Below, in pieces: positions 205 to 32,993 of a stretch of DNA of 38,387 nucleotides. The translations under genes and the position numbers were made by a program. The stretch lies in contig JAFWES010000041.1 of assembly GCA_017512805.1 (NCBI GenBank), forward strand, positions 1 to 38,387. The letters are read 5' to 3'. This stretch comes from Clostridia bacterium. GTDB lineage: Bacteria; Bacillota; Clostridia; Christensenellales; Aristaeellaceae. Below the pieces are notes generated by a model that did not search any database, was not told where the DNA came from, and saw only the letters and a list, made by a program, of their open reading frames with translations. Position 1 is the stretch's first letter; each line of letters starts with the position of its first letter.

Positions 205-1335
205 TCATATATACGTTAAATTTGATGGTTCAGTGTTTATATACCCTTTCTCAACCAAATGCCTACAAGCCTCCGGAGTTACGCTCCACATCATCTCTGT
301 TCCATCATCTCGAACAGGAAACACGGCTACACAACCAGGCTCTTGTTCTACAGAAAAGCGATCAACATCAGGTGTGATTGGATTGCCCACTCGTTGGATT
401 AAGCTGGTTTCTGTATTAATATAGAGTGCATAGAATTGAGATGGACGTGAAGGACGAATATTAGCCGGATTTCCTCGTCTAAACGATCGCCAATGAATCG
501 ATTCTCCTTCTTGAGAATAAGCCGCATTTTCAATTGGCGTAATAGTATAGCTTCCAACCATGACAAAATATATGAATTCATTTGTCCGACTGAAACTATT
601 AAACCTTGCAGCTCCACTTCGTGCTGTCAGTGAGCTTATCATTTGAATATGAGCTTCAGGGAACATTTCTTCCAGCAAGCATCCCAGATGCAGATATTCC
701 TTCTCATCAATCGTCACGATCAGCACAGAATCCTTCGGATTGAGTAGCCGCTTTGCCAGTTTTAATCGCTTCTCCATGAAGGACAACCATTTGCTGTGGC
801 GATAGCTGTCCGCGCCGTCCACATAGTCGTTATTGTACTTCCAGTCCTTCGCACCGGTATTGTAGGGCGGGTCGATATAGATACAGTCTACCTGTCCGGC
901 ATAGAGGTATTCCAGCAGCTGCAGCGCATGATAATTGTCCGCCTGAATCAGCGTATGCCACAGATCACTGTCCGGGGCATTGCAGACGGTATCGATGGGC
1001 TGCAAATACGGATAGATGGGTTCACCAAACCGAGCCACAGCCACCAGCTGATCCAGCGGGTATTCTACCGTTTCGGCATCCTTCTGATAGATGCAGGTGG
1101 CCTTCCCCTCCGTGATGGCTGTCACTATCATCAGATCATTCACACTGCCGTCCTTCTTGGCCACCAGCGTTCCCACTCGGACAGGCAGCTCATACAGCGG
1201 GGTGCACTCTGGAATGTGATTCTCAAACACCAGGCCGAACTTCTTCTGCCTGGACAGCTTATTCACTTCTGCTTGTATCTGTGCGCGGAGCTCAGGATCC
1301 TGAATGCGACTGATCAGGTCGTTAATAGCTGCCAT
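205..1335 (-). CDS. Type III-like Mod DNA methyltransferase, C-terminally truncated
   Basis: This 376-residue protein matches the N-terminal half of site-specific DNA methyltransferases of the Type III Mod / N6-adenine type. It has a leading helical segment, a target-side domain, and the catalytic motif IV DPPYNTG followed by the usual W-KYNNDYVD and FMEKRL segments. In this class the AdoMet-binding motif I (F-x-G-x-G-T-T) lies C-terminal to motif IV. It is absent here, because the frame stops soon after a GYINTE segment and no continuation is visible in any minus-strand frame before the next gene. Full-length relatives are usually 600 residues or more, so this is probably an inactive remnant. 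The start lies 6 bp after the XRE regulator gene, so the two form one operon. No restriction subunit is present. Confidence 0.7.
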   Translation of the reverse strand: MAAINDLISRIQDPELRAQIQAEVNKLSRQKKFGLVFENHIPECTPLYELPVRVGTLVAKKDGSVNDLMIVTAITEGKATCIYQKDAETVEYPLDQLVAVARFGEPIYPYLQPIDTVCNAPDSDLWHTLIQADNYHALQLLEYLYAGQVDCIYIDPPYNTGAKDWKYNNDYVDGADSYRHSKWLSFMEKRLKLAKRLLNPKDSVLIVTIDEKEYLHLGCLLEEMFPEAHIQMISSLTARSGAARFNSFSRTNEFIYFVMVGSYTITPIENAAYSQEGESIHWRSFRRGNPANIRPSRPSQFYALYINTETSLIQRVGNPITPDVDRFSVEQEPGCVAVFPVRDDGTEMMWSVTPEACRHLVEKGYINTEPSNLTYI

Positions 1336-1721: not shown

Positions 1722-1791
1722 CGAAATAAGGGAGATAGGCAGGCAAATTCTTGCTCTGTTTGTCATCAATCAGGACTTGGAGGGACATACC

Positions 1792-4584
1792 ATGAAGAAA
1801 GCTGTATCCGCATTGCTGATCCTGGCTCTTCTCTGCACCTTCTGCTGCACCGCCATGGCAGCCGGAGAACAGAAAAGCGGTAACTTCAGGTACAAGGTGC
1901 TGTCCGACGGCACTGTTGAGATCACAAAGTACTCAAGCTATGACTCAGCAGCAATCACCATCCCAGAGGCGATTGATGGACATACTGTTTCATCTATTGG
2001 TAAGAATGCGTTTATGTACGCATCTATCACGTCTCTGACGATTGGGAGCAATGTCACCAACATTGGCGATTCTGCTTTCTTAAGCTGTGATGCCGAGACG
2101 GTTACAATCAACGCTGGTGATCTCAAGATTGGCAAGCAGGCGTTTTCTTGTTGCTCCAACATCAAGACTTTTTCCTTGACTGCAAACAACGTTGAGATTG
2201 GCAATTCGGCGTTTATGTACACGGAACCGCTTACAACCTTCAATTGGCAGCTGGCAGATGCAAATGCGCAAGGGACTAAGACAGTCATTGGCGAAAACGC
2301 ATTCTTTTCATCTGGCGTTGTGGACATCACGATTCCTGGCGATGATCTGCAAATCGGGAAGAAAGCTTTCAGCTGCTGTTCGTCGATCAAGTCGATGACA
2401 GCACTGTGCCGGACCATCACAATTGGCGATCAGGCTTTCATGCACGCCGAATTTGAATCTTTCTCTCTTCCAAACGCCGGCAGTGTCGGAGGCGGAACGG
2501 GCAAGCTCGGGGATTCAAGTTTCTTCTCTTGTGGCCTGAAATCGTTTGTTGTTCCTGCCAGCATTCAGAAGATTGAAGCAAAAGCATTCTCATGCTGCTC
2601 TGATCTGGAAAGTATCGTTATCCCGCCAACAGTGACATCCATTGGAAGCGGAGTGTTCCAGCTGGCCAATTCCTCCATGGTGGCCAAAGTCGTTGCTGGC
2701 TCTTATGCAGACCAATACTGCAAGAAAAACAGGATTGCCTGCGAATACATTACTGATGAAGACCTGACAAGCATCTACGGGGATAGATATGTTGGAGAAG
2801 CGGAAAGTGCCAGTGAAGCAGCTGCGCAGCAAGCCGCTGCTCTGCCAAAAAATACCACCCCTGCAGAGCTGCATTTCACAAATTATACCTACAAGAGTGA
2901 CAAGTGGGACCTGTACAAGGCAACGTTCCTTTCTGCTTCTACCTTGAAGATTGAAAAATGGACCAGATTGAATGCTGGTGAGGATGGCGATCCCTTTAAG
3001 TACTCCTCTGATATTTGTGTGGTAAACATCACTGATGGAAGCACAGATTTCGCTTGGGCTGATTCAACCCAAACCGCTTTTACCATCACGCTGACCGATG
3101 ATAGAAATTCTCATCTGGACGATTCAGCTCGAGCAGCTTTTACTGTGAATCGAAGCGAGATCGACAGCGTTACCGAATACACTTACATGAATGATAAGTG
3201 GAGTTGGTACCGTGCCTATGCTCTTTCTGACAGTGTGATCAAGATCGAAAAGTGGAGCCGCTTCGATGCCAGTGAGGATGGCGATCCATTCGCACACGAG
3301 AGTGACCTTTGCATTATTCAGATTGTCAATGATCCTGGTGACTTCGCCTGGACGGATGACACCCATGTTGCCTTCACTGTTACTATGCAGGATGAAGATA
3401 ATGGAAACTGGGAAGAGTCACGGCTCACGCCATTTGCTATAGATGCTGATCCGGAGAGCACTCCCTTCTACTCCTATCAGAACGATAAATGGAACTGGTA
3501 CAAAGCATATAAGATCTCGGATACTACGCTCCGAGTCGAGAGATGGTCAAGGTTTGATGCGGGCGAAGATGGTGATCCGTTCAAGAGAGAACGTGATCTT
3601 TGTATCATAAAAACCGAAGATACAGCCAATGGATTTGCTTGGTCCGATGATACGCATTCCGCCTTTACGATCAACATGATCGACGAGGATAATAGTTATT
3701 GGGAAGAAGAGACTTCCACTCCATTTGCCATTGAAAGCAGTGAGCCGGATCTAAGAACTCTGACCTATATGCATGACCGCTGGGATCTCTATGTAGCAAC
3801 TGTTCTCTCGGACGAGACAATCATTGTAGAGAACTGGAGCCGCTTCGATGCCGGTGAGGATGGCGATCCATTCAAGCGCGAGTATCATGTGATGGTGATC
3901 AATACGACAAGCGGCACGCCTGATTTCAGATGGACGGACGATTCACACGTTGCCTTCACAATTACAATGCAAGACGCAAAGAACAGTTATTGGGACGAAG
4001 CGCAGCAAGTGACATTTACACTTGATGAGACCCTTGTCCTGCCAGTGGTAAAGACCCTTTCAGTTATGCCAGTCGCCACGCCAGAACCTGCTCAAGGTGC
4101 TGCCGCAACTGCAACTCCTGCTCCTACGAGCACACCTAAACCGACAGCAACACCTACTGAAGTACCAGCAACGCCTACTGAAGTACCGACAACAGTATCT
4201 TCCGACAATACGCCAGCCAGTGAAGAAGTCGAGCAAATTATCGATCTTTCTGGCTACAATGACGCAGAGCTATTATCCTTATACGCACAGGTGAGAGATG
4301 AGATCATTAATAGGCACATCGAGAAGACGGCGATAGTGACGCCGGGTAAATATCTGGTTGGCAGAGATCTGCCTGCTGGGCAGTATGTGCTCAACAACAC
4401 GTCAGGAGAAGCGGTCTACATTGCAATTTTCAAGGATAATGCAATGAATTACAAGGACTCTGAAGCTGTTGATGCTTTTAACGTCTGGGCAGAAACGACC
4501 GTTACACTTGAAGAAGGTCAAGTCTTTGAAGTAAGGCATCATAGGATTGAGATGACAGTTTCTTCAGGGATCGTCTTCAAGTAA
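1792..4584 (+). CDS. Secreted BspA-type leucine-rich-repeat protein with four 97-residue repeats
   Basis: A 930-residue exported protein. The start at 1792 is chosen because GGAGG lies 8 bases upstream and it opens directly on a signal peptide (MKKAVSALLILALLCTF, cleavage near AMAA-GE); an upstream in-frame TTG is less likely. Residues about 35-325 are BspA-like (LRR_5) repeats with the IGDSAF / IGKKAFSCCS pattern. Residues about 365-750 hold four tandem copies, each about 97 residues, with the shared signature DKW-x-x-Y-x-A, KIEKWSRFDAGEDGDPF and FAWTDDTHVAFTITM. A Pro/Thr-rich spacer follows (about 761-808). The C-terminal domain carries GKYLVGRDLPAGQY, a motif common in Bacillota envelope proteins. 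BspA-type proteins usually mediate adhesion or surface binding. There is no LPXTG or membrane anchor, so it is probably released or held by the C-terminal domain. Confidence 0.8.
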   Translation: MKKAVSALLILALLCTFCCTAMAAGEQKSGNFRYKVLSDGTVEITKYSSYDSAAITIPEAIDGHTVSSIGKNAFMYASITSLTIGSNVTNIGDSAFLSCDAETVTINAGDLKIGKQAFSCCSNIKTFSLTANNVEIGNSAFMYTEPLTTFNWQLADANAQGTKTVIGENAFFSSGVVDITIPGDDLQIGKKAFSCCSSIKSMTALCRTITIGDQAFMHAEFESFSLPNAGSVGGGTGKLGDSSFFSCGLKSFVVPASIQKIEAKAFSCCSDLESIVIPPTVTSIGSGVFQLANSSMVAKVVAGSYADQYCKKNRIACEYITDEDLTSIYGDRYVGEAESASEAAAQQAAALPKNTTPAELHFTNYTYKSDKWDLYKATFLSASTLKIEKWTRLNAGEDGDPFKYSSDICVVNITDGSTDFAWADSTQTAFTITLTDDRNSHLDDSARAAFTVNRSEIDSVTEYTYMNDKWSWYRAYALSDSVIKIEKWSRFDASEDGDPFAHESDLCIIQIVNDPGDFAWTDDTHVAFTVTMQDEDNGNWEESRLTPFAIDADPESTPFYSYQNDKWNWYKAYKISDTTLRVERWSRFDAGEDGDPFKRERDLCIIKTEDTANGFAWSDDTHSAFTINMIDEDNSYWEEETSTPFAIESSEPDLRTLTYMHDRWDLYVATVLSDETIIVENWSRFDAGEDGDPFKREYHVMVINTTSGTPDFRWTDDSHVAFTITMQDAKNSYWDEAQQVTFTLDETLVLPVVKTLSVMPVATPEPAQGAAATATPAPTSTPKPTATPTEVPATPTEVPTTVSSDNTPASEEVEQIIDLSGYNDAELLSLYAQVRDEIINRHIEKTAIVTPGKYLVGRDLPAGQYVLNNTSGEAVYIAIFKDNAMNYKDSEAVDAFNVWAETTVTLEEGQVFEVRHHRIEMTVSSGIVFK
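2884..4035 (+). repeat. Four tandem ~291-bp coding repeats
   Basis: Equivalent codons of the repeat unit fall at 2884, 3178, 3469 and 3760, a period of 294, 291 and 291 bp. The best-conserved part encodes the GEDGDPF segment. The copies have diverged at the DNA level, so the array is old rather than freshly expanded. Confidence 0.8.
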
Positions 4585-4640
4585 TCAGGCGAAGTAATCT
4601 TGACTTTGTGCCAGCGAACAGTCTGACACACAAAGGGAGG

Positions 4641-4669
4641 GGCATCGGATTTTTGATCCGGTGCCTTTT
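4641..4669 (+). terminator. Rho-independent terminator of the leucine-rich-repeat gene
   Basis: GGCATCGGAT and ATCCGGTGCC form a 10-bp stem with one G-U pair around a 5-base loop, followed by TTTT. It lies 57 bp after the stop codon. Confidence 0.65.
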
Positions 4670-4760
4670 CCTCTGCCCGTAGAAGGGAATGTATGGAAAC
4701 GATCAGTATGGCAGGCACAGAAGCAGCCTGACATGCAGTTAAAAATCTTCATGGCATTCA

Positions 4761-4790
4761 GCGACCAGCAAACACGCCGGTCGCTTTCTT
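4761..4790 (+). terminator. Weak hairpin with T-tract
   Basis: GCGACC and GGTCGC pair around a 12-base loop and are followed by TTTCTTT. The hairpin stands between the leucine-rich-repeat gene and the small gene at 4817. It may be a second terminator, or a leader structure of the small gene. Confidence 0.35.
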
Positions 4791-4816
4791 TATGCCCACC
4801 CATGAAAGGAGCACCC

Positions 4817-5116
4817 ATGCCCAGCCGTCTCACGAAATACGAAAAAGAAACCGTCCTGCTCTACAACCAGAGCCGCGACCCTGTCATCATCAGCACTTAC
4901 GATCCCGGCCTGCGCAGACGCCTGCGAGAATATGCTGCCAGGTATCCTGAATTGTGCCGGCGCGTTGACAAGCAGAAATATCCGGACTATGCCGAGTACG
5001 AGATTCAGAAAGATCGTGTGTCTATCCGGCTCCTGCCGCCCATGAGCGAGGAAAAGCGGAAAGCGGCCAGCGAGAAAGCGAAGGCTGCGGGACTCGGCAC
5101 CAAGGTCAACACATGA
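4817..5116 (+). CDS. Small phage/ICE-associated protein of unknown function
   Basis: A 99-residue basic protein starting at 4817 behind AAAGGAG. It begins MPSRLTKYEKETVLLYNQ, continues with a segment on cutting angles DPVIISTYDPGLRRRL, and ends in a Lys/Ala-rich tail (SEEKRKAASEKAKAAG). The opening (L-T-x-YE-x-ET-x-x-x-YN) and the Y-E-I-x-K-x-x-V-x-I-R-x-x-P-P core resemble small uncharacterised proteins that recur in prophages and integrative elements of Bacillota. No catalytic motif is visible. Its stop overlaps the region fused to the truncated transposase, so it marks the remains of a mobile element. The family resemblance is from memory and not verified. Confidence 0.55.
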   Translation: MPSRLTKYEKETVLLYNQSRDPVIISTYDPGLRRRLREYAARYPELCRRVDKQKYPDYAEYEIQKDRVSIRLLPPMSEEKRKAASEKAKAAGLGTKVNT

Positions 5117-5142
5117 CGGGCCATCAAAGCAGAGGGCATCGA

Positions 5143-6105
5143 CTGATGCCAAACGGAGTGCCATCGGCAGATACATTTGAAAGGATATGGCAAAGGCTCG
5201 ACAGCAAAGAATTCAAGAGAAGTTTCCGGAGGTGGACAGAGAGTATACGGGTTAAGATCGCAGGAGAAGTAATCAGTAAAGATGGGAAGACATCCCGCGG
5301 AAGCGGAGATGATGAAAAGAAAGCTGTACATATGGTATCAGCATGGTTAAGCGAACAAAAAATGGTACTCGGGCAAATTGCAGTACCGGAGAAAACGAAT
5401 GAAATCACAGCCGTCCCTGAACTGATAAAGATGCTGGATATAGGCGGGTGTATTATAACAGCAGATGCAATGAGTTGCCAGAAATCAATCGTAGCAGAGG
5501 TCATTCGAAAGAAGGCAGACTATGTTATCGGACTGAAAGGGAATCAGAGTGGGTTGCTGGAATATGCAGAGCTGCTTTATGAAGGGATTCGCAAAGACCC
5601 AGGACTATATGAAGTCAAAAGTATCGTAACTCATGACAAAGGGCATGGAAGGCAGGAGGTAAGAACATATTATATTTCAACGGAATTATCGGGATTGCAC
5701 CAGCAGAAGGAATGGAAAGGGCTAAAGGCCATAGGAATGGTACACTCCGTCATTACCGACATCAAGACTGGAGAGGTAACCGAAGCATACAGGTACTACA
5801 TCACATCGTTAACGGACATAGAAGCATTTGCGCGGGCTGTCCGGGAACACTGGGGAATTGAGGCATCTCTTCATCATGTACTGGACGTGTCTTTCCAGGA
5901 GGATGCATCGAAAATTCGGAGGGATAATGCACCAGATAATATGGCAGTTATTCGCCATTTTGTGATTGCGGCACTCAAATATCTTCCTGTTCGTAAGAAC
6001 AATGTCAGCGCCAGACGAAAACGAAAGATGTGCGGAAGAAATCCGGATTTGCTTTTACAGGCTTTAGAACTTATCCTTGCTCCGCAAAATGCTGAGGCCC
6101 TGTAA
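5143..6105 (+). mobile_element. ISAs1-family transposase, 5' end missing
   Basis: The reading frame is open from 5113, but recognisable transposase sequence begins only at about 5147 (MPNGVPSADTF), the point where ISAs1 transposases read LPNGIPSHDTF after about 80 N-terminal residues. Those residues (the DDE_Tnp_1-associated domain) are missing and are replaced by about 11 unrelated codons. The RNase-H-fold core looks complete: ISKDGKTSRGS (first Asp), ITADAMSCQKSI (second Asp), ALKGNQ-like VIGLKGNQ, and REHWGIEASLHHVLDVSFQEDAS (Glu). The element is therefore a left-truncated insertion sequence, probably unable to move alone. The GGCCCTG at the 3' end, beside the stop codon, could be its right terminal repeat. 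No target-site duplication is visible because the left end is lost. Confidence 0.75.
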
Positions 6106-12250: not shown

Positions 12251-14737
12251 ATGACGCCCTTTGGTCACTTTTATCTGGATAAGGAAAAGGATATCCTGGT
12301 GGAACTGGAGCGGGAGGGGGACGAGCTGTTCTACGTGCTGCGGACCCCGAACCACGGGACGGGAAATCTGATTACCAACCTGGCGGTTCTCTGCCATCTT
12401 CCCCTGACGATGGACAAAAGCGGCCTGAAGGTCATACGGGGAACGCTTCCCTGCTATATCGACGGGAAAAATCGGATGGTCTATGTATTCAGACTGCTGG
12501 ATACCAAAATCGCCAACATTTTTCCGGATGGGACGGTGGAGCGGAAAGCCTCCGTTCCGGCGATTGCCAAAACCCTCATGAGCCAGACCAAGGATTACCG
12601 GCTGGATTTCCGAAAAACGGTCGTCAAAACGTATATCTTCCGGGAATGCAAGTTCCGGACCGACCTGCATACCCATATGAACGCCAATCTGGATCCGGAT
12701 CTGCTGATCGCTCTGGGCATTCATCATCAGATCCGCTATCCGCTTTACTATATCCGGAAGCTGCGCCTTCGCTGTTCTCCCGCGCAGGAGGAGCTGCTTT
12801 CCGCCCGCCGGGCGGTGGCCGAGGAAGCGTTCCGGGATTCCCCCCTGACGGGGAAGTATCGGGACCGCAAGATCAATGACGCGACATTCATCAACTTTGC
12901 TTCTCTGATTCTGGACAATCTGGAAAATGCCGCCTGGAATATCCCCCGGATTCGGGCTTCCCTGGCCATTCTCAAGGATGGGCAGGCGGTTTTTACCAAT
13001 CTCGAAAAGGTTTACCTGTATCGATACGTATTCTGCAAGGGGGTTCCCGCCGAGGATCCGGTGGCGCCGGAGACGGCGGAGCGTTTTGAGCAGATCCCGG
13101 ATGAGGAAATCGTCGGTTACCTGTACCAGATGATGGCGGACAGGGCGCATCCGGCCTTTCGGTACCATACGCTGTTTCAGGATAAACTCCTGTGGATTGC
13201 CCGCAACTATGCCCGGTGCGGAGTGGATTACGCGGAAATCTCCGATACGACGCTGGTGAAACCGGAGGCCGCTCCGGCCATGCTGGCCCAGCTGCACGCG
13301 GCCCTTCCCGCCATTGCCGAGGAAACAGGGGTGACCCTCCGGTTTCTGGCGGCGATCCGGCGGACCCCCCTGACCATTCTGAAGGACCGGATTGCGGAAA
13401 ATGACGATATCCGGGAAAACCTGCGGGTGCTGGAGGCCGTGGCCGGAGATCCCTACGTGGCGGGCAGCGATATCGTGGGGGAGGAGATCAACGATATCCG
13501 GGATCTTTCCCCGCTGCTGCATCACCTGGTGGCCCTGACGAAGCAGCATCCCTCCCTGACGCTGCGGATCCACGCCGGGGAAAATGACGGCCTGCGGGAA
13601 AACGTGGCGAACGCCATACGCTGCGTCCGAGAGGGCCTCTCTCCCGGGCAGCCCATGCCCCGGCTGCGCATCGGGCACGGCCTGTACACCACCAGCCTTT
13701 CCTCCCGGAAAGGGCAGGCGCTGCTCCGGGATTTGAAGGAAAGCGGAGCGGTGCTGGAATTTCAGATTACGTCCAACGTCCGCCTCAATAATCTTTCCGC
13801 GATCGCCCGGCATCCCCTGCGCCAGTATCTGTCCGCGGGCGTGGCCTGCGTGCAGGGGACGGACGGAGGCGCCCTCTATGGGACGGATTCCATCGACGAG
13901 CAGCTGGCGCTGGAAAAAATGCTGAACCTGTCAAAGGAAGAACTGCTTCAGATGCGGACGGCGGAGGAAAAGGTCCGGCAGGAGGGGCTTTCGTCTTTCC
14001 GGGAGAAGATGGAGGCCTTCTGCCGGGAGACGAAGGATGCGGATATAGCCGCCTTCTATGCGGAAAAAATAAAGGCACAGCGGCTTCCGACGGAACAAAT
14101 GACGGAGCTTCCCGCCCTGACGAATTCCGCCGCCTTCCTTGCGGATCAGGTGGCGGATCTGCCGCTGGACAAGGTGCCTCTGGTTTTGGCGGGCGGATCC
14201 TTCAACAATGACCGGCATCTGACCAGGCAGCGGGGGAAAGTCTGCCGGATGCTGGACCAGGTGCTGGAAGAGGGAGATCCGGACAAAATGTTCCTGGTCA
14301 TCGGACATAGCCTGACCGGGTATGAAGGATACCTGCTCAGGCGAAACCAGGGGAAGTTCAGGGTCTTTGCCTTTGTCCCCGCCCGGCTGCACACCGCGGA
14401 AGCGGAAAAGCTGAAAAAAGCCGGAGCGGAAATCCGGATATCCATCGAACCCAGCGCCATGGGGGTGTATAAAAGCTTCGCCTTCGAGATTTTTAAGCGA
14501 CGCCCCTCGATTCTGATTGCCCTGGACGGCAATTCCGCCGGCACCAATCTGATCCAGGAAGCAAAAAACGGCAGGGGGGGGAGCCGCATCTTCATCTATG
14601 AAGGGGCCCGCATGCTCAGGGAGAAAGCGATGAGCCTCCAGGGCTATGCCACCTTGTTCAATGAGGAGACGGATCTGCCCGGAAAGGTCAAAGAAACGGT
14701 GGAAACGCTGTATCCCATCCGTTGGCTGAGACCGTAA
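12251..14737 (+). CDS. Large adenosine-deaminase-family protein with SLOG-like C-terminal domain
   Basis: An 828-residue protein, more than twice the size of housekeeping adenosine deaminase (about 340). The start at 12251 has GGAGGG 7 bases upstream. Residues 1-130 are an unrecognised N-terminal domain. The deaminase barrel keeps every expected active-site residue: DLHTH (zinc His140, His142), IHAGEN (zinc His441, catalytic Glu444), RIGHG (His476) and GTDGG (zinc Asp538), with ITSNVRLNNL between the last two. About 300 residues separate the first and second motifs, against about 200 in ordinary enzymes, so there is a large helical insertion. Residues about 643-828 form a Rossmann-like domain with LVLAGGSFNND, VIGHSLTGYEG and ALDGNSAGTNLIQEA, resembling nucleotide-binding SLOG/LOG domains. 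It probably deaminates an adenine nucleoside or nucleotide under control of a bound ligand. The domain naming is inference. Confidence 0.7.
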   Translation: MTPFGHFYLDKEKDILVELEREGDELFYVLRTPNHGTGNLITNLAVLCHLPLTMDKSGLKVIRGTLPCYIDGKNRMVYVFRLLDTKIANIFPDGTVERKASVPAIAKTLMSQTKDYRLDFRKTVVKTYIFRECKFRTDLHTHMNANLDPDLLIALGIHHQIRYPLYYIRKLRLRCSPAQEELLSARRAVAEEAFRDSPLTGKYRDRKINDATFINFASLILDNLENAAWNIPRIRASLAILKDGQAVFTNLEKVYLYRYVFCKGVPAEDPVAPETAERFEQIPDEEIVGYLYQMMADRAHPAFRYHTLFQDKLLWIARNYARCGVDYAEISDTTLVKPEAAPAMLAQLHAALPAIAEETGVTLRFLAAIRRTPLTILKDRIAENDDIRENLRVLEAVAGDPYVAGSDIVGEEINDIRDLSPLLHHLVALTKQHPSLTLRIHAGENDGLRENVANAIRCVREGLSPGQPMPRLRIGHGLYTTSLSSRKGQALLRDLKESGAVLEFQITSNVRLNNLSAIARHPLRQYLSAGVACVQGTDGGALYGTDSIDEQLALEKMLNLSKEELLQMRTAEEKVRQEGLSSFREKMEAFCRETKDADIAAFYAEKIKAQRLPTEQMTELPALTNSAAFLADQVADLPLDKVPLVLAGGSFNNDRHLTRQRGKVCRMLDQVLEEGDPDKMFLVIGHSLTGYEGYLLRRNQGKFRVFAFVPARLHTAEAEKLKKAGAEIRISIEPSAMGVYKSFAFEIFKRRPSILIALDGNSAGTNLIQEAKNGRGGSRIFIYEGARMLREKAMSLQGYATLFNEETDLPGKVKETVETLYPIRWLRP

Positions 14738-14804: not shown

Positions 14805-16202
14805 ATGAGCGGTGAATTCAATTCCAAAGCGCGGGAGCTGACGGTGGCCTATATCGGGGGAGGGTCCCGGGGATGGGCTTGGGGGTTCATGATGGATCTG
14901 GCCATGGACGCGGACATGTGCGGCACGGTCCGGCTGTACGATATCGACCGGCCGGCGGCGGAACGCAACAAGATCATCGGCAGCATGATCAGCGCGCATC
15001 CGGACGCGGTGTCCCGGTGGCAGTATGAGGTCAGCGATTCCCTGAAGGACGCCCTGACCGGGGCGGACTTTGTGGTGATTTCCATTCTCCCCGCCACGTT
15101 TGAGGAGATGCGTTCCGATGTCCATCTGCCGGAGCGGCTGGGGATCTGGCAGCCTGTGGGCGATACGGTGGGCGCCGGCGGATTCATGCGGGCGATGCGG
15201 ACCATTCCCATGTTCGTGACCATTGGCGAGGCGATCCGGGATTACGCGCCGGAGGCCTGGGTCATCAACTATACGAACCCCATGAGCCTGTGCGTCCGGA
15301 CACTGTACGAAGTGTTCCCGGGCGTCAAGGCCTTCGGGTGCTGCCATGAGGTGTTCGGCACCCAGACACTGCTTTGCGCCATGCTGGACAGGGAAGAGGG
15401 CATTTCCGGCGTCAAACGGCAGGATCTGTACACCACCGTCACCGGGATCAACCATTTTACCTGGCTGACCCGGGCGAGTTACAAAGGAATGGACCTGATG
15501 CCCTTGTACGCCAGAATGGCGGACAAGTACTGGGAGAGCGGATACGACGAGGGGCAGGATAAGAACTGGATGAACTCCCATTTCAACTGCGCCCATCGGG
15601 TGAAATTTGACCTGTTCCGCCGGTTCGGCGCCATCGCCGCCGCCGGGGACCGGCACCTGGCGGAGTTTACGGCTCCCTGGTATACGGCCAGCCCGGAAAC
15701 GGTGACTTCCTGGAAGTTCAGCCTGACGACGGTGGAGTGGCGGATCAAGGATCTGCACGACCGCCTGCGGCGGTCGGACGATCTGATCAGCGGAAAGGAG
15801 AAGCTGACGCTCAAACCCTCCGGTGAAGAAGGCCATCTGCTGCTCAAGGCGGTGCTGGGCCTGGGAGACCTTGTTTCCAATGTAAACATCCCCAACCGGG
15901 GACAGATTCCGAATCTGCCCCTGGGCGCGGTGGTGGAAACCAATGCGCTGTTCGGCCGGGACCGGATTGAACCCGTGTACGCCGGACCGCTGCCTTCCAA
16001 CATTCTTCCCCTGATCGCCCGGCATGTTTACAACCAGGAGAACACCCTTGCGGCGGCGATGAAACGGGATCGGAAGCTGGGCTTCACTACCTTTATGAAT
16101 GACCCCCAGCTGGCGGCGGTCCGTTTCGAGGACGGTCAGAAGCTGTTTGACGATATGCTGGAGAATCAGCGGGCCTATCTGCCGAAGGAATGGTTTGCCT
16201 GA
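14805..16202 (+). CDS. Glycoside hydrolase family 4 (alpha-galacturonidase/galactosidase-like)
   Basis: A 465-residue GH4 enzyme. GH4 cleaves glycosides by an unusual NAD- and metal-dependent oxidation-elimination route. The start at 14805 follows GGAGGA. The NAD-binding turn is IGGGSRGWAWG (residues 17-27). NYTNPMS, the metal-binding Cys180-His181 in CCHEVFG, and GINHFTW (Asn216, His217) are all present. The CHEVFG and INHFTW segments resemble the LplD-type branch (alpha-galacturonidase in Bacillus), rather than phospho-glucosidases that use CN-x-P. It is cytoplasmic. Together with the nearby esterase it suggests use of plant cell-wall oligosaccharides. Confidence 0.8.
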   Translation: MSGEFNSKARELTVAYIGGGSRGWAWGFMMDLAMDADMCGTVRLYDIDRPAAERNKIIGSMISAHPDAVSRWQYEVSDSLKDALTGADFVVISILPATFEEMRSDVHLPERLGIWQPVGDTVGAGGFMRAMRTIPMFVTIGEAIRDYAPEAWVINYTNPMSLCVRTLYEVFPGVKAFGCCHEVFGTQTLLCAMLDREEGISGVKRQDLYTTVTGINHFTWLTRASYKGMDLMPLYARMADKYWESGYDEGQDKNWMNSHFNCAHRVKFDLFRRFGAIAAAGDRHLAEFTAPWYTASPETVTSWKFSLTTVEWRIKDLHDRLRRSDDLISGKEKLTLKPSGEEGHLLLKAVLGLGDLVSNVNIPNRGQIPNLPLGAVVETNALFGRDRIEPVYAGPLPSNILPLIARHVYNQENTLAAAMKRDRKLGFTTFMNDPQLAAVRFEDGQKLFDDMLENQRAYLPKEWFA

Positions 16203-19172: not shown

Positions 19173-20396
19173 ATGTATGAGCAGGTTTGGGTGAAAAAGA
19201 CCGTGTACGGCGACGGAGAGGATCAGCTTCTCCAGGGGGACGGCGCCCGGCTGCCCCGGGACATTTTGGACAGGGCGGGACAAATCCAGTGCGTCTATCT
19301 GGATCCCCCTTTCATGACGGGTAAAGCGTTCAGGCGGAAACGGCCCTGGGGCGAGGCAGGATGGAAGAGAGGGGCTCCCTGCCTGGATCTTTCCGGTTAC
19401 ACGGATCGGTTTCCGGACGAGGAGAGCTATCTGGAGATGCTGTCGGGGATGGTTTCCGCTTCCTGGGAAATGCTGAGGCCGGAAGGGGTGTTCTATCTGC
19501 ATCTGGACTGGCGGATGGCCGGGGAGATGCGGAATCTGTGCGATCAGGTTTTCGGGAAGGAGCGCTTTCTTAACGAGATCATCTGGAGCTACGAGAGCGG
19601 AGGGAGAAGCAAAAAAACCTTCTCCCGGAAGCATGACAATATCTTCCTGTACGCAAAGAGCGATCATTACCGCTTCGACATCACCCGGGTTCCCCTGCCT
19701 CGGGGGGAGAACCGGCAGAATCATATGGCGCGCAAGACGGACGAGGATGGACGAACCTATTCCAGCATCAAAGCCGGCGGGAAGGAATACCGGTATTATG
19801 ACGACGATCCCGTGTATCCCGGGGATGTGTGGAGCGATATCGGATTTTTGCAGCAGCGGGATCCGGAACGGACAGGGTATCTGACCCAGAAGCCGGAGAA
19901 ACTGCTGGAGCGGATGCTCAAGCCGGTGGTGGATCCCGGGGATTGGGTGGCGGACTTTTGCTGCGGCAGCGGCACCACGATGGCGGTGGCGGAGCGCCTG
20001 GGCTGCCATTATATCGGCGTGGATACAAACCCGGAATTCGCGGCCATTAGCCTGGCGCGGCTTCGGGGGGAGAATCTGACGGTCACCTGCGGCACGGCGA
20101 TGGACGGAAGGGAAGCGCATACCCATACTGACCCGGAGCGGAACCGGCTTTGGCTGGACGGACTGGAGCTGACAGGCGCCCCCTATCCGGAAATGGCAAA
20201 GGGCACTGACCTTATTGAAAGCTGGGAAGTGGGCAGGATTGAAAATGAGGTGTTTTACAGCCGGAAGCGGTTCCGGCGGTCCTTCAGGTATCCTGCCCTG
20301 ACGGACAACGTGAGCGTGGAGGACGGAAAGATGCCGGATCTGATGGTGACGGACGCGGCAGGCATCCGCCGGGCCTACCGATGGAGGAACCCATGA
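19173..20396 (+). CDS. Orphan DNA methyltransferase (N4/N6, beta-type order)
   Basis: A 407-residue DNA methyltransferase of the N6_N4_Mtase family. The catalytic motif IV is DPPF (residues 44-47), preceding the AdoMet-binding motif I DFCCGSGTT (261-269), the order of beta-class enzymes. Between them lie the EIIWSYESGG and TQKPEKLLERML segments typical of this family. The last 100 residues have no recognisable motif and may hold target recognition. DPPF is an unusual variant of DPPY/NPPY. No restriction enzyme is nearby, and the gene sits in a housekeeping operon with normal local composition. It may therefore be an epigenetic or regulatory methylase. The ribosome site is weak. Confidence 0.85.
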   Translation: MYEQVWVKKTVYGDGEDQLLQGDGARLPRDILDRAGQIQCVYLDPPFMTGKAFRRKRPWGEAGWKRGAPCLDLSGYTDRFPDEESYLEMLSGMVSASWEMLRPEGVFYLHLDWRMAGEMRNLCDQVFGKERFLNEIIWSYESGGRSKKTFSRKHDNIFLYAKSDHYRFDITRVPLPRGENRQNHMARKTDEDGRTYSSIKAGGKEYRYYDDDPVYPGDVWSDIGFLQQRDPERTGYLTQKPEKLLERMLKPVVDPGDWVADFCCGSGTTMAVAERLGCHYIGVDTNPEFAAISLARLRGENLTVTCGTAMDGREAHTHTDPERNRLWLDGLELTGAPYPEMAKGTDLIESWEVGRIENEVFYSRKRFRRSFRYPALTDNVSVEDGKMPDLMVTDAAGIRRAYRWRNP

Positions 20397-27017: not shown

Positions 27018-29481
27018 ATGATGACGGACAGAACCCTGCGGGTGTTGGAATTCACGCGGATCCGGGAGATGCTGTCGGAGGGGGCCCTGACGGAGGGCGG
27101 CCGGGAGCGGTGCCTGGCGCTGAAGCCCATGGACAGCCTCTTTGACATCGGGGAGGCGCAGCAGGAGACGGAGGAAGCCACGGTGATCCTGCAGTACGTG
27201 GGCGGGCACCCGCTGACGGAGTTCCCCGACGCCCGGGGGGCGCTGCGGGTCTGCGCCAAGGGCGGAACGCTGAGCCCCCGGATGCTGCTGGACGTGGCGG
27301 GGCTTCTGCGGGCCAGCCGGGCCGCGCGGGACGCGCTGATTACCGAGCGGGAGAACACCCCCCGGCTCCGGGGCAAGGCCGAGACGCTGGCGGAGGTCCG
27401 GAACGTGGAGCGGGACATTACCGACGCCATTTTGAGCGAGGACGAAATCGCCGACCGGGCCTCCTCGGAGCTGGCCAATATCCGCCGGCACCTGCGGGGG
27501 GCCCAGGAGCGGATCAAGGACCGGCTGAACCAGATGATCCGGTCCGCGGGGATGCAGAAATATCTGCAGGAAAGCATTATCACCGTCCGCAACGGGCGGT
27601 ATGTGATTCCGGTGCGGGCGGAATACCGCAGCATGGTGCCGGGCCTGGTGCACGACCAGAGCACCTCCGGGGCGACGCTGTTCGTGGAGCCCATGACGGC
27701 GGTGGAGATGGGCAACGAGATCCGGGAATGGGAGATCAAGGAAGCCCGGGAGATCGAGCGGATTCTGGCCGCTCTCAGCGCGGAGGTCGCGCCCTGGGCG
27801 GAGGCCCTGGAGGCCAACGCCGAGACCCTGGGCGAGCTGGATTTCATCTTCGCCAAGGGGCTGCTGAGCCGGCGGCTGCGGTGCGTGGCGCCGAAGATGA
27901 ACGAGCGGGGCTATCTGAACATCATCCGGGGGCGGCATCCGCTGATTGACCCGGAGAAGGTGGTGCCGTCGGATATCTATCTGGGGTATCCGGAGGAAGG
28001 CGCCGACCGTTCGGGCGGCCGCCGGGGCGGAAAGCAGAAGGAGGCCGGAGGCCAGGCGCGCGCGGACGCGCCGGCCGAAGCGGCGGAGAGCAGGGGTCCC
28101 GGCTTTAATTCCCTGATCATTACCGGGCCCAATACCGGGGGCAAGACCGTGACCCTGAAAACCCTGGGGCTTCTGACCCTGATGGCCCAGGCCGGGCTGC
28201 AGGTGCCGGGAGCTGGGAACGGAGCTGTCCGTTTTCGAGCAGGTATGGGCGGACATCGGGGACGAGCAGTCCATCGAGCAAAGCCTGAGCACCTTCAGCG
28301 GGCATATGACCAACATCGTCACCATCATGCAGCAGGTCACGCCCCGGGACCTGGTGCTCTTTGACGAGCTGGGGGCGGGGACGGATCCCACGGAAGGGGC
28401 GGCCCTGGCCCAGAGCATTCTGACCCGGCTTTTGCATATCCGGGTCCGGACGGTGGCCACCACCCACTACAGCGAGCTGAAGGTATTCGCCATGACCACG
28501 GAAGGGGTGGAAAACGCCAGCGTGGAATTTGATGTGGAGACCCTGCGGCCGACTTACCGCCTGAGCATTGGGGTTCCCGGGAAAAGCAATGCCTTCGAAA
28601 TCAGCAGGCGGCTGGGACTGGCGGAGAATCTGATTGAAAACGCGAAAAAACTGCTCAGCAGCGAGGAAATTCGCTTTGAGGACGTGATTGCGGACGCGGA
28701 GTATCACCGGCAGGTCGCGGAGCGGGAGCGGCAGCTGGCCCAGGAAGCCAGCAGAGAAACCATCCGCCTGCGGGACGAGGCGGAGAGCCTGCGCCGGGAG
28801 ATGGAGCAGCGGCGGACGGAGAGCGTCCGCAAGGCGAAGGAGGAAGCCCGCCGGATTCTTCAGGATGCCCGCCAGGAAAGCGAGAGCGTGATCAGTGAGC
28901 TGAAGCGCATGAAGAAGGAAGCCGGAAGCGCAGCGGATGTCAACGCGCTTCGGCACAGGCTGGACAAGGGAATCGACGAAATGAGCGAAGGACTGAATCC
29001 CGCCCGGCCGGAGGAGGGGGAGGTTCCGGAAACCCTCAGGCCCGGGGATCAGGTGAAGGTTCTGACCTTTGGGACCAATGCCAGCGTGCTGTCCGCCCCC
29101 AACAGCAGGGGCGAGGTGGAACTGGCCAATGGCAATATGAAATTCAAGGCGAAGCTGCAGGATCTGCGGCTCATCCGTCACGGGGAGCCGGCGCCGAAGA
29201 CCACGGTCAAGGCGAAGACGGGGGCACTGACCCGGAGCGTTCCCATGGAATGTGACGTACGGGGGATGAACCTGGAAGAGGCGATCGGAGCGGTGGAAAT
29301 CTATCTGGACGAAGCGGTGCTGGCGGGGCTGCATGAAGTCAGCGTGATTCACGGGAAGGGGACCGGGGTGCTGCGAAGCGGCCTTCGGCAGGAACTGCGG
29401 CGCAACAGGCATGTAAAGAGCATCCGCCCCGGCATGTACGGAGAGGGAGAAGACGGGGTTACGGTGGTGACGCTGAAATAA
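27018..29481 (+). pseudogene. mutS2: mutS2, split by a one-base frameshift
   Basis: Two reading frames together encode one MutS2 of about 820 residues (start 27018, AAGGAGG upstream). The first covers the clamp and lever domains and Walker A TGPNTGGKT. The second, in the +1 frame, covers ADIGDEQSIEQSLSTFSGH, Walker B LVLFDELGAGTDP, the long coiled coil and a C-terminal Smr domain (DVRGMNLEEA, VIHGKGTGVL). The shift is one extra G in the GGG run at 28208-28210; dropping it gives the expected PELGTELSVFEQ. Without correction the product ends soon after Walker A and the ATPase is dead. MutS2 acts on ribosome collisions and recombination intermediates. It may be a real recent mutation or a sequencing error. 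A Gly/Ala/Arg-rich linker of about 35 residues (near 28000-28100) just before the ATPase domain is longer than usual. Confidence 0.85.
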
Positions 29482-29539: not shown

Positions 29540-30238
29540 ATGAAAGAGAAACCGGATATTCTGGTGGTCGATGACGACCCCAATATCGCGCATCTGGTGG
29601 CGCTCTATCTGCAGAAGGAGAACTATGAAGTCCGGACGGCGGCCCGGGGAGACGACGCGGTCAATGAATTCAGCCGTCTTCCTCCGGACCTGATGCTGCT
29701 GGATGTGATGCTTCCGGGAATGGATGGGTACCAGGTTTTGAAAAACGTCCGGAAGAGCAGCAGGATCCCGGTGATCATGCTGACGGCCCGGGACGAGACG
29801 TTTGACAAGGTGCTGGGGCTGGAGCTGGGGGCGGACGATTATATCACCAAGCCCTTTGATCCCAAGGAGATGGTGGCGAGGGTAAAGGCCGTTCTCCGGC
29901 GCACCCAGGGGGAAGAGGAGGAGATCAAAAACGATCTGCATTACCCGGGGCTGACGGTCAGTATCTCCTCCTATTCCGTATACTATGAGGGAAAGAAACT
30001 GGAGATGCCTCCCAAAGAGCTGGAGCTGCTGGATTTCCTGGCCAAGTCTCCGAATCAGGTTTTTACCCGGGAACAGCTTCTCAAGCAGGTGTGGGGATTT
30101 GACTTTTTCGGGGACAGCCGGACCGTGGACGTGCATATCAAACGGATCCGGGAAAAACTGCCGGATTGTGAAAAATACGGATGGGACATCCACACCGTAC
30201 GGGGCGTGGGGTACCAGTTTGAACTGAAAAAAGGATGA
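29540..30238 (+). CDS. OmpR/PhoB-family response regulator
   Basis: A 232-residue two-component response regulator. The receiver domain has the acidic pair in VVDDDPN, the phosphoacceptor Asp55 in LLDVMLPGMDG and the switch Lys in YITKPFDP. The C-terminal winged helix has the DFLAKSPNQVFTREQLL and VWGFDFFGDSRTVDVHIKR segments. An AAGGAG-like site lies upstream. Its stop overlaps the next gene start in an ATGA. The histidine kinase is two genes on, so this is one coupled three-gene unit. The signal is unknown. Confidence 0.93.
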   Translation: MKEKPDILVVDDDPNIAHLVALYLQKENYEVRTAARGDDAVNEFSRLPPDLMLLDVMLPGMDGYQVLKNVRKSSRIPVIMLTARDETFDKVLGLELGADDYITKPFDPKEMVARVKAVLRRTQGEEEEIKNDLHYPGLTVSISSYSVYYEGKKLEMPPKELELLDFLAKSPNQVFTREQLLKQVWGFDFFGDSRTVDVHIKRIREKLPDCEKYGWDIHTVRGVGYQFELKKG

Positions 30239-31488
30239 ACGGAAGACTGCTGCGGGCGGTGCGGTATTTTACCCGGGATACCGGCATCATGGACGGAATG
30301 GCGGCGGTTTGCGGCCTGGGAGGCCGGCGGGCTTACGCCTATGACGGGCGGGAGATCGGAAAGGAGACGGTCTATGACCTGGCGTCGGTGACCAAGCTGT
30401 TTACCGGCATGGTGATGATGCGGCTTTTCGAAGACGGCCGGCTGGATCTGTCGAAGAGGGTTCCCTATTACTGCCCGGAATTTCGACGGCTTGGGACGGT
30501 GACCGTGGAACAGTTGGCGGGCTTTCAGCGGAAGATTGAGACCCCGGAGCGGATAGACGCGCAAAAAAGCCGGGAGGAGGCGATTGCGTGCCTGCGGGAA
30601 GCCAGGGACGCAGGCGCCCCCGGTCAGCGCGCATATTCGGATATCCCGGCCATGATCCTGAAGTATGTGATTGAAGCGGCGGCGGGAGAGGAGCTGTACA
30701 GCTGCGTCCGGCGGATGATTCTGGCGCCGGCGGGGATGGAGGAAACCTGGGCAAAGGTGCCGGATAAAAGAAGGGGAGACTGCCTGCTGTATGGGCCGGA
30801 ATACCGGATTGAAGGAGAAAGCCGGATCTGCCGCAGGCCGCCGGCCAGAGGAATTCCTCACGATCCGAAGGCGGCACTCCTGCAGGGGGACAGTGGGGAT
30901 CTTTGCGGGCACGCGGGATTGTTTTCGACGCCCTGGGATCTGGAAAAAATGGCTGTGGCCCTGCTGGAGGGAAGCATTCTCCGGCGGGAAAGCCTGAGAA
31001 TGCTTGCGGTGAACCGAACGGGGCGGGAACGGAAGGCAGGAGGATATACACAGTACCTGGGGTACATGTGCTATCTGAAGCACCCCGACCAGTATTATTC
31101 GGAAATTCCCGCCGCCATGGGACCGGCAGCCTTCGGCATCGGAGGTTTTACCGGAAACCATTTCAGCGTTGATCCGCAGGGCGGCAGGTACACCCTGTAT
31201 CTGGGAAACCGGATCCGGGACCGGCTGACCGTCCTGATTCCGCCGGAGGGAAAGACCCGGGCGGACTACGGGCTGAGCGAGGAAGGGCAGGGGAAGATCC
31301 GATGGACGGATGGAAGGCTGCATTTTTCTTCCGTCAATTACGTTCACCAGAAGGATGAACATTTCCACCGGGCGGTGGAAGAAATCCTGAACCCGAAAGG
31401 ACGGGGCCGCCGGGCGGAAAACAGCATAGAAACGGATCATCCCCCTGCATCTCCCGAGGAGAACGGAAAAGAAGGAAGAAGCGGATGA
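30235..31488 (+). CDS. Class C beta-lactamase-fold serine hydrolase
   Basis: A 417-residue member of the beta-lactamase/penicillin-binding-protein-like family. The nucleophile motif is ASVTKLF (Ser51, Lys54). A YSD segment (AYSDIP) stands for the usual Tyr-x-Asn. The third motif is GFTGNH (in place of H-x-G-x-T-G). There is no signal peptide or membrane segment, so the protein is probably cytosolic, unlike most of the family. It lies between response regulator and kinase with 4-bp ATGA overlaps at both ends, so it must be made together with them. A role in sensing or making a cell-wall-derived signal is possible but not shown; an esterase or peptidase is equally possible. Confidence 0.75.
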   Translation: MNGRLLRAVRYFTRDTGIMDGMAAVCGLGGRRAYAYDGREIGKETVYDLASVTKLFTGMVMMRLFEDGRLDLSKRVPYYCPEFRRLGTVTVEQLAGFQRKIETPERIDAQKSREEAIACLREARDAGAPGQRAYSDIPAMILKYVIEAAAGEELYSCVRRMILAPAGMEETWAKVPDKRRGDCLLYGPEYRIEGESRICRRPPARGIPHDPKAALLQGDSGDLCGHAGLFSTPWDLEKMAVALLEGSILRRESLRMLAVNRTGRERKAGGYTQYLGYMCYLKHPDQYYSEIPAAMGPAAFGIGGFTGNHFSVDPQGGRYTLYLGNRIRDRLTVLIPPEGKTRADYGLSEEGQGKIRWTDGRLHFSSVNYVHQKDEHFHRAVEEILNPKGRGRRAENSIETDHPPASPEENGKEGRSG

Positions 31489-32993
31489 ACAGTCTTTTCG
31501 CGAGGATCATGGCGGTCATGCTGAGCGTGATCCTGATCCTGACGGCGGCGTTGAGCCTGCTGAGCTACTACAGCATGCGGGAGCAGCGGATTTCCGCGCG
31601 GCTGGATTACCTGGCCAGCGAGGCGGCGGACATCGCCGATCTGGCGGCGGATATGAACAGCGGCGGCTACCCCGCGCTGCTGTTTCAGAGTTCACCCCAG
31701 CGATATTTAAACTGGAAGGCGCAGAAGGTCAATGACGAGTTCGGCGCGTATATCGCGGTGGTGGACCGATGGGGCCGGGTCATGGATAATCTGCAGACGG
31801 CCTACAGCGAGGACCCGGATTTTGTGGCCAGCCTGAGCGGGGAAGAGATTACCGCTGCCCTGACGAGGGTTCTGGCGGGGGAGCAGATCCGCATCCGATC
31901 CCAGAGCGGACAGGATCCCACCTTTACGGTGGGCGTGCCCTTTCAGCAGTATGAAACCGTCACGGGGGCGGTTCTGATCCAGACCAAGGTGCAGCGGATT
32001 CAAAGCGGCATGGAGGATCTGCTCTTCCAGGTGATCGGCGTGGCGCTTCTTGCGATGGCGGTCAGCGCGGTTGCGGTCTGGCTGGTTGTCCGGGGAATGA
32101 TGAAACCGCTGGGAAGCCTGACGGAGGCCGCCCGGGCCATGGGGGAAGGCGACTTCAGCCTGCGGGTGGATGAAAGCAGGGGGGACGCCCAGCTGCGGCA
32201 GCTGAGCAGCACCTTTAACGGGATGAGCGAAAGGCTGCAGAAGATGGAAAACAGCCGGCGGGAATTTGTCGCCAATGTAAGCCATGAACTGCGCAGCCCG
32301 ATTACCAGCATTCGGGGATTCGCGGAGGGCATGGCGGAAGGGATCATCCCGCCGGAGGATCATCCCCGGTACCTGCGCCTGGTGGCGGAGGAGAGCAACA
32401 GGCTCAGCCGCCTGGTGGAGGAGCTGCTGGCGCTGAGCCGGCTGGAACGGGACGACGCCACCCTGGAGAAGACGGACTTCGACATGAACGAGATGCTTCG
32501 TCGGGCCATCATCCGGAGAATCGAAGATCTGGACCGGAAAAACATTGAGGTGACCTGCTCGTTTGGGACGGATCCCTGCTGCGTACGGGCGGATGAGGGC
32601 CGGATCGAGCAGGTGGTGATCAATCTGCTGGATAATGCCATCCGCTTTACGGAGGAAGGGGGCAATATTCGCCTGACGACGGAGGAAACCGCCGATGGGG
32701 TGGCCGTGACCGTGTGGGATGACGGACCACCGATCCCCGAGGAGGATCGGGCAAGGGTCTTCGAGCGGTTCTTCACCTCTGACAGGGCGCATACCTCCGG
32801 AAAGGGAACAGGGCTGGGGCTCAGCATCTGTCAGCAGATCATGAAAATGCATGGGCGAACCGTCGCGCTTCTGGACACGGAGGAGGGAACGGCCTTCCGG
32901 TTCGAACTGGATCGGGGGGAAAAGACGGAAAAACCGGCCGGGAAGGGGGCATTTCCGGCGGGAAAAACCGAAGAAATGCCGAAGGAGGAATGA
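31485..32993 (+). CDS. Membrane sensor histidine kinase
   Basis: A 502-residue kinase, the partner of the response regulator at 29540. Membrane segments lie at about residues 5-27 and 180-203, bounding an extracytoplasmic sensor of about 150 residues, followed by HAMP (about 200-255). The H-box is VANVSHELRSPITS (His267). The ATPase has N-box INLLDNAIRFT, G1 VWDDGPPIP, F-box ERFFTSDR and G2 GTGLGLSIC. A 30-residue charged tail follows. It is coupled to the serine hydrolase by an ATGA overlap. Confidence 0.92.
   Translation: MNSLFARIMAVMLSVILILTAALSLLSYYSMREQRISARLDYLASEAADIADLAADMNSGGYPALLFQSSPQRYLNWKAQKVNDEFGAYIAVVDRWGRVMDNLQTAYSEDPDFVASLSGEEITAALTRVLAGEQIRIRSQSGQDPTFTVGVPFQQYETVTGAVLIQTKVQRIQSGMEDLLFQVIGVALLAMAVSAVAVWLVVRGMMKPLGSLTEAARAMGEGDFSLRVDESRGDAQLRQLSSTFNGMSERLQKMENSRREFVANVSHELRSPITSIRGFAEGMAEGIIPPEDHPRYLRLVAEESNRLSRLVEELLALSRLERDDATLEKTDFDMNEMLRRAIIRRIEDLDRKNIEVTCSFGTDPCCVRADEGRIEQVVINLLDNAIRFTEEGGNIRLTTEETADGVAVTVWDDGPPIPEEDRARVFERFFTSDRAHTSGKGTGLGLSICQQIMKMHGRTVALLDTEEGTAFRFELDRGEKTEKPAGKGAFPAGKTEEMPKEE

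Follow-up and report, generated by a model that had tools for sequence, protein, structure and literature searches.

The known gated deaminases, Cad1 and RADAR, are defence effectors that convert ATP to ITP. Cad1 belongs to type III CRISPR systems and, according to the available part of PMC12669630, carries a CARF domain ahead of its deaminase core. The RdrB protein of RADAR is 799 residues long (8FNW), and the 8FNV and 8FNW entries are structures of the RdrA-RdrB complex. Here we describe a gene of contig JAFWES010000041.1 from a Clostridia bacterium (Christensenellales, Aristaeellaceae; assembly GCA_017512805.1), the 38,387 nucleotides of which, analysed as a whole, are referred to below as the window. 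The gene encodes an 828-residue protein in which an adenosine-deaminase-type core is flanked by an N-terminal and a C-terminal domain, a real, well conserved and apparently undescribed variant of the adenosine-deaminase superfamily, which we tentatively read as a regulated deaminase encoded without a dedicated partner. The architecture is not described in the available parts of PMC11645235, PMC12669630, PMC9994260, PMC7159879 and PMC9503650, nor in the titles and openings of abstracts listed by a literature search from which most subscription papers fell out of scope. Such a conserved relative, poor in partners and, for many genomes of one gut genus, the sole deaminase of the kind to be found, would tell whether gated chemistry also has a place in ordinary purine control. 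It would add two new domain families and offer a one-protein system for studying gating.

An 828-residue protein with an intact deaminase core

The gene is an open reading frame (ORF) of 828 codons with no internal stop, and a GGAGGG motif lies 7 nt 5' of its ATG. Homologues were collected by a pattern scan of an 84,980-species collection, which returned 367 stretches encoding a relative at E <= 1e-3 (ordinary deaminases may be among them); the top 80 served as loci, of which 72 passed the length filter, some being lost to antisense ORFs in the longest-ORF choice. Alignment A1 comprises 44 rows, i.e. 43 homologues below 82% mutual identity and the window protein, and a wider set comprises 73 rows. 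The first conserved residue in A1 is F7; because the homologues were trimmed to the query start, the alignment gives no independent proof of the start codon.

Pfam A_deaminase (PF00962) scores 51.5 bits over residues 317-569, where 27 is the cut-off (E = 1.1e-13), and none of the models in Pfam, NCBIfam, PADLOC and PHROGs reaches beyond the deaminase portion of the protein. A profile of the long family matches 20 shorter deaminase-family proteins with a probability of 98.9%, and sequence searches of the PDB ranked ordinary adenosine deaminases first (6n9m, with E = 1.4e-6 for the single sequence and 1.1e-9 for the profile). Aligned with the deaminase family, the core displays the metal ligands H140, H142, H441 and D538 and the catalytic E444 and H476, all six unchanged in 44/44 homologues, as are the HxH, HAGE, GHG and TD motifs and a GxDxxGxE segment. 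The first-pass annotation had proposed this frame, these six residues and a layout with an N-terminal domain, an insertion in the core and a C-terminal domain, and translation, the Pfam match and the alignments bear it out on all three counts.

With ordinary adenosine deaminase (add) the protein shares the barrel core, the metal ligands, the catalytic glutamate and histidine and the TSN and HPL segments. It differs in length, the 20 shorter members having 315-445 residues and neither of the extra domains, and in the spacing of its motifs: HxH and HAGE are 299 residues apart, ~100 more than in ordinary enzymes, the extra length being spread over several segments. The spacing from HAGE to the GHG histidine is 35 residues in the long family versus 24 in the numbering of mouse adenosine deaminase (ADA), and the last catalytic histidine and the aspartate are 62 residues apart in all 66 rows measured out of the 73. 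The NCBIfam equivalog TIGR01430 reaches 49.1 bits, far under its cut-off of 216.55.

Two substrate contacts are replaced

In mouse ADA, Asp19 contacts the ribose and Asp296 the base. When the long family is aligned with its shorter relatives, Asn144 stands at the Asp19 position and Gly539 at the Asp296 position, both in 44/44 rows, in place of the Asp/Glu and Asp/Asn usual there. The asparagine at the first position extends to 73/73 rows of the wider set (72 by exact motif and L061 by eye). In contrast, the shorter members, which are ordinary by family assignment only, have Asp or Glu at the Asp19 position in 20/20 cases; in the 11 that were aligned, this position is Asp in six and Glu in five, and the Asp296 position is Asp in eight and Asn in three (counts taken from the alignment, the motif search having allowed just four letters at that position). 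As both the ribose and the base contact positions are replaced, plain adenosine is doubtful as the substrate. The same two positions are altered in TaqCad1 (Gly264 and Asn549), which acts on ATP and not on adenosine according to the available part of PMC12669630. The N144 and G539 replacements had been passed over in the first-pass annotation.

Two conserved accessory domains

The boundaries of the domains are given in Table 1, together with a secondary structure that is a crude estimate averaged over the family. The fraction of majority residues is highest in the N-terminal domain (0.79), intermediate in the core (0.74) and lowest in the C-terminal domain (0.65). The 176 residues of the latter nevertheless include 25 invariant ones, among them G648, G649, S650, F651, G685, E692, R729, E733, K741, G760, N761, N766 and Q769. 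Both accessory domains are under purifying selection: the ratio of nonsynonymous to synonymous substitution rates (dN/dS) is 0.02-0.18 in the N-terminal, core and C-terminal parts alike, for 10 hand-picked close pairs.

Nothing convincing was found for the two domains by a Pfam scan of the window protein, by PHROGs or by profile comparison with PDB sequences, nor by Pfam for the 44 C-terminal domains (best E = 0.0037). Searches with the domain profiles returned essentially the long proteins themselves: the C-terminal profile gave seven strong matches among 291 class genomes, each in an open frame of 823-869 residues, with one weak match (E = 0.001), and the N-terminal profile, run on 245 genomes, gave six strong matches located in these long frames and six weak ones (E = 0.01-0.09). 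Weak matches aside, neither domain was found outside this architecture in the sampled genomes, and the two may represent families not yet described. The long homologues retain both domains, so the refuting case named in the first-pass annotation, homologues without the accessory domains, did not arise.

That annotation had also called the C-terminal domain a SLOG-like sensor with GGS and GNSAGT motifs. In profile-profile comparisons, the domain gave P = 0.32 against LOG (12 proteins), P = 0.041 against YpsA over 10 columns only, P = 0.77 against NDT and P = 0.24 against TIR, leaving the SLOG label without sequence support. Note that the control between two SLOG families, YpsA against LOG, gave a modest signal (P = 0.00028 over 130 columns, probability 41%), and that a kinship of SLOG depth would often escape this kind of comparison; the other controls were YpsA against NDT (0.00043), TIR against NDT (0.0065), LOG against TIR (0.051) and LOG against NDT (0.31). 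For these comparisons, two of the 13 rows of the YpsA alignment were left out and one was trimmed; the NDT set came from nine of 12 loci and the TIR set from 16 of 30, L215 and L222 then dropping out because of their truncated loci. As for the motifs, GGS (648-650), G760, N761 and N766 do not vary across the alignment, and variation is seen at A763, G764 and T765. The domain also gave weak Toprim-like matches, Toprim_2 matching 20/44 members at E <= 1 (best 0.0064) and Toprim_4 matching 12 (best 0.005); these matches were set aside because they are based on the DGNSAG stretch, in which Cys replaces Asp759 in L067, L073 and L080.

Comparison with Cad1 and RADAR

The protein shares with Cad1 the combination of a deaminase core and a Rossmann-like domain, which follows the core here and precedes it there. 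The PADLOC Cad1 model matched over positions 342-571 of its 605 only, i.e. its deaminase part, leaving the CARF part unmatched. It matches 32/44 homologues; because it also matches short ordinary deaminases over the deaminase part, the match is not specific, and we rejected it as evidence of kinship with Cad1. None of the 17 PADLOC models found among 137 neighbouring proteins (see below) is a type III CRISPR effector-complex model, cas10 not having been searched genome-wide.

RdrB resembles the window protein in its length, in the ~140-150 residues that precede HxH in both and in a long HxH-to-HAGE stretch (344 residues in the available part of PMC9994260). It differs in having a large insertion behind the last of its catalytic histidines, H530 (same part of PMC9994260), and its deaminase profile match lies at 689-786 of 799, whereas the window family, with its fixed histidine-to-aspartate spacing, has no such insertion and carries a separate domain after the barrel. 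The RdrA ATPase is not a conserved neighbour, and no RADAR-named model occurs among the 17 PADLOC families of the 137 neighbours. Nor does one occur among the PADLOC matches of the homologues at E <= 10, in a library that presumably holds an RdrB model. The window family may work like Cad1 or RADAR, yet by the features tested it is a member of neither.

Distribution

In the genus of the window's genome, a protein search found a long match in 27/37 genomes (its own included), with G004 adding a short fragment, and a census of A_deaminase matches found the long form, defined as an open frame of 815 residues or more, in 31/41. Another A_deaminase match above cut-off is present in 11/41 genomes, seven of which also carry the long form, so that the latter is the sole such match in 24/31 carriers. 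Beyond the genus, a sample of 398 genomes of the phylum contained one other full-length case, and two other families contained the protein in 7/150 and 8/59 genomes, a centre genome chosen as a carrier being counted in both figures. Several titles among the best 80 loci name the gut of goat, sheep, roe deer or yak.

A quick tree built from the 73 rows has a branch with a support of 100, one side of which is made up of the 20 rows with Actinomycetota titles. Midpoint rooting nests them inside Bacillota, keeping in mind that bins can hold stray contigs; with the root placed by midpoint only, this would most simply be explained by one transfer. A viral home was considered and found no support: no relative turned up in viral contigs in two scans with short peptide patterns, a method liable to overlook distant ones. 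Four phage and eight plasmid records contain partial deaminase matches, none of them over 80% of the query.

Genomic neighbourhood

The first-pass annotation had placed the gene beside purA-purB. Both are indeed in the window (at 16418 and 17702), separated from the deaminase gene by a family-4 glycosidase gene (14805-16202). Among 20 larger loci, of which 19 belong to the genus and one to another family, purA-purB lies near the homologue in one, L150, which is the closest relative among the 20 (75%) and in which the order of purA-purB is inverted and the upstream region partly shared. With a single case in 20, a purine operon was rejected and the relevance of the adjacency is not supported. 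More generally, the survey of neighbours that had been suggested found no conserved partner among 78 loci, no gene cluster within 5 kb recurring in more than five of them. In two of 77 loci, a TIR gene adjoins the homologue (Table 1).

The 77 loci contain 139 neighbours no more than 1500 bases away, and the 137 of up to 900 residues were scanned. The orientation of the neighbours is mixed, with 38 same and 33 opposite upstream and 43 same and 25 opposite downstream. The commonest Pfam families, taken from the first 25 of 95, are alpha-amylase (5), TrmO (4) and TrkA (4). At E <= 1e-10, 17 PADLOC models matched, including the generic GlgB (five members), and single matches to Dsr1, ThsA, SAVED_TIR, viperin, mad3/mad8, HamB and CRISPR-regulator models, with one match each to the WYL and Csa3 regulator models; in L038, the adjoining gene is SIR2-like. 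In the 20 larger loci, ABC-type genes are present in 12 at scattered positions and a family of 800-906-residue ORFs in four, directly downstream of the homologue in two and a few kb away in L155 and L161. By eye, the shared flanks of an 8-member subclade resemble genes for an AI-2E-type transporter, a zinc-ribbon protein and a TPM-type protein, and apparent MATE, cysteine synthase, QueH-like and Tex genes flank the homologue in seven of its members. Riboswitch control was rejected: Rfam gave three cis-regulatory matches in 21 sources, TPP (L083), T-box (L159) and SAM (L058), none directly before the deaminase gene. Scans for sigma-70 promoters and terminators gave nothing above chance.

Table 1. 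Positions of the deaminase gene, its domains and selected features of homologue loci (positions are those of the window unless a locus is named)
Feature	Position	Strand	Basis or remark
Whole gene, 828-residue adenosine-deaminase-superfamily protein (P0001)	12251..14737	+	translation, Pfam, homologue alignment
N-terminal domain, residues 1-134	12251..12652	+	mostly beta (crude prediction), no family match
Deaminase core, residues 135-600	12653..14050	+	Pfam match, alignments, motif spacing
C-terminal domain, residues 640-815	14168..14695	+	alternating beta/alpha, Rossmann-like (crude prediction), no convincing family match
800-906-residue ORF family, directly downstream	L152 11198-13597	+	neighbour comparison
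800-906-residue ORF family, directly downstream	L151 6286-8781	-	neighbour comparison
TIR-domain gene, 29 nt upstream of homologue	L060 11-634	+	same strand
TIR-domain gene, 128 nt downstream of homologue	L076 4363-5781	+	same strand
Putative lipoprotein with nucleoside-hydrolase motif, starts 30 nt after homologue	L075 + L091 10499-11560	+	two closely related loci
SAM riboswitch, just 3' of homologue, ahead of next gene	L058 10756-10884	+	Rfam; not linked to deaminase

Competing explanations

We favour, with a confidence somewhat short of even, a stand-alone chromosomal metal-dependent deaminase whose substrate is a purine nucleotide or a modified nucleoside and whose C-terminal domain is regulatory. 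In the barrel core, the usual metal ion, Glu444 and His476 would together bring about the hydrolytic removal of an exocyclic amino group, from a substrate that, in view of the two replaced positions, is probably other than plain adenosine. The Rossmann-like C-terminal domain would most likely bind a small nucleotide-like ligand and tune the core, and the N-terminal domain would probably mediate oligomerisation or cover the active site. Of the earlier proposals, a nucleotide-sensing or purine-salvage enzyme is the better half, its sensing part being suggested by the pattern of conservation and the architecture. A more specific version, which we regard as speculative and on balance unlikely, is a resident ligand-gated deaminase that would use its C-terminal domain to sense a metabolite or a nucleotide messenger and to switch the deamination of an adenine nucleotide. 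It would be a counterpart of the Cad1 and RADAR logic that is not mobile, or the origin from which that logic evolved; an ADP-ribose derivative is one candidate messenger, given the TIR genes beside two homologues.

Several observations weigh against the regulated nucleotide deaminase. The C-terminal domain has no detectable kinship to a known ligand-binding family in the profile comparisons, for which reason sensing is argued from pattern and architecture. Loss of both contacts could instead mean a non-adenine substrate, and the asparagine found at the Asp296 position in three of 11 shorter members weakens the Cad1 parallel, which is a hint about the substrate rather than proof because this residue is not rare there. 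In L048, QGTGGG replaces QGTDGG, putting a glycine at the D538 metal-ligand position in one of the 73 rows, which suggests decay or an assembly error, and the census mixes genomes that are 54-99% complete. Finally, a TIR model built here matched 2/140 immediate neighbours versus 0/584 other genes of the same loci. This adjacency is a lead only, because it was noticed post hoc and TIR was one of many families examined; by analogy with Thoeris, it would fit a signal-maker beside a sensor. The TIR neighbours and the asparagine in ordinary members led us to move weight toward a defence role, away from both the regulated deaminase and a purely metabolic one.

A purely metabolic enzyme would deaminate constitutively, in salvage via adenosine, AMP, a modified adenine nucleotide or a related compound, its extra domains serving assembly or substrate capture with no gating. 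We hold this to be rather unlikely, even if it agrees with the long form being the sole A_deaminase match in most carriers, with the ordinary enzymes that make up the commonest neighbour families and with the nucleoside-hydrolase-family gene downstream of the homologue in the related pair L075/L091, a possible link to inosine. Against it speak the loss of the ordinary ribose and base contacts, a 176-residue domain whose 25 invariant residues exceed the needs of an assembly tag, and the second A_deaminase match in seven of 31 carriers. An anti-phage effector, whose C-terminal domain would bind an infection signal so that adenine nucleotides are depleted or poisoned, is unlikely. The signal would perhaps be an ADP-ribose derivative from a TIR enzyme whose gene lies elsewhere or, for a few genomes, right beside the deaminase gene. 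Its general plan would be that of Cad1 and partly of RADAR RdrB, as far as the available parts of PMC12669630 and PMC9994260 describe them, and the same-strand TIR genes beside the L060 and L076 homologues, the SIR2-like gene in L038 and the patchy occurrence in the two other families would fit. The presence in three quarters of the genus, the strong purifying selection, the 75/77 loci without a TIR neighbour, the lack of any TIR_2 match in the window's own genome and the empty viral scans, together with phage and plasmid matches that are all partial, argue the other way; the lone defence effector that had also been suggested is a weak idea, kept alive by the few TIR and SIR2-like neighbours.

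Two further possibilities concern the chemistry itself. A two-step enzyme, with deamination in the core and a second reaction catalysed by the C-terminal domain, for instance a LOG-type cleavage of the base-ribose bond, would explain the invariant polar residues in the expected post-strand loops (G648-F651, E692, E733, K741, N761, N766 and Q769) and a motif order that by eye is reminiscent of LOG. The P value of 0.32 against the 12 LOG proteins and the fall of the LOG catalytic glutamate at Asn766, in a by-eye register, make it quite improbable. Least probable is a superfamily member that is no longer a purine deaminase and catalyses another amidohydrolase reaction: the altered Asp19 and Asp296 positions and the low TIGR01430 score would agree with it, and the HxH, HAGE, GHG, TD and GxDxxGxE elements kept in every row of A1 do not.

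Other features of the window

The window contains two N6/N4 DNA methylase genes, at 205-1335 (minus strand) and 19173-20396 (plus strand), the second one after purB. At 1777-6105 (plus strand), a BspA-type leucine-rich-repeat protein is encoded ahead of a small ORF and a DDE transposase. MutS2 is split into two overlapping ORFs, 27018-28364 and 28306-29481 (plus strand, 27018-29481 in all), each with part of MutS_V, which suggests a frameshift or an assembly error. At 29540-32993 (plus strand), a beta-lactamase-family gene lies between a response regulator and a likely histidine kinase.

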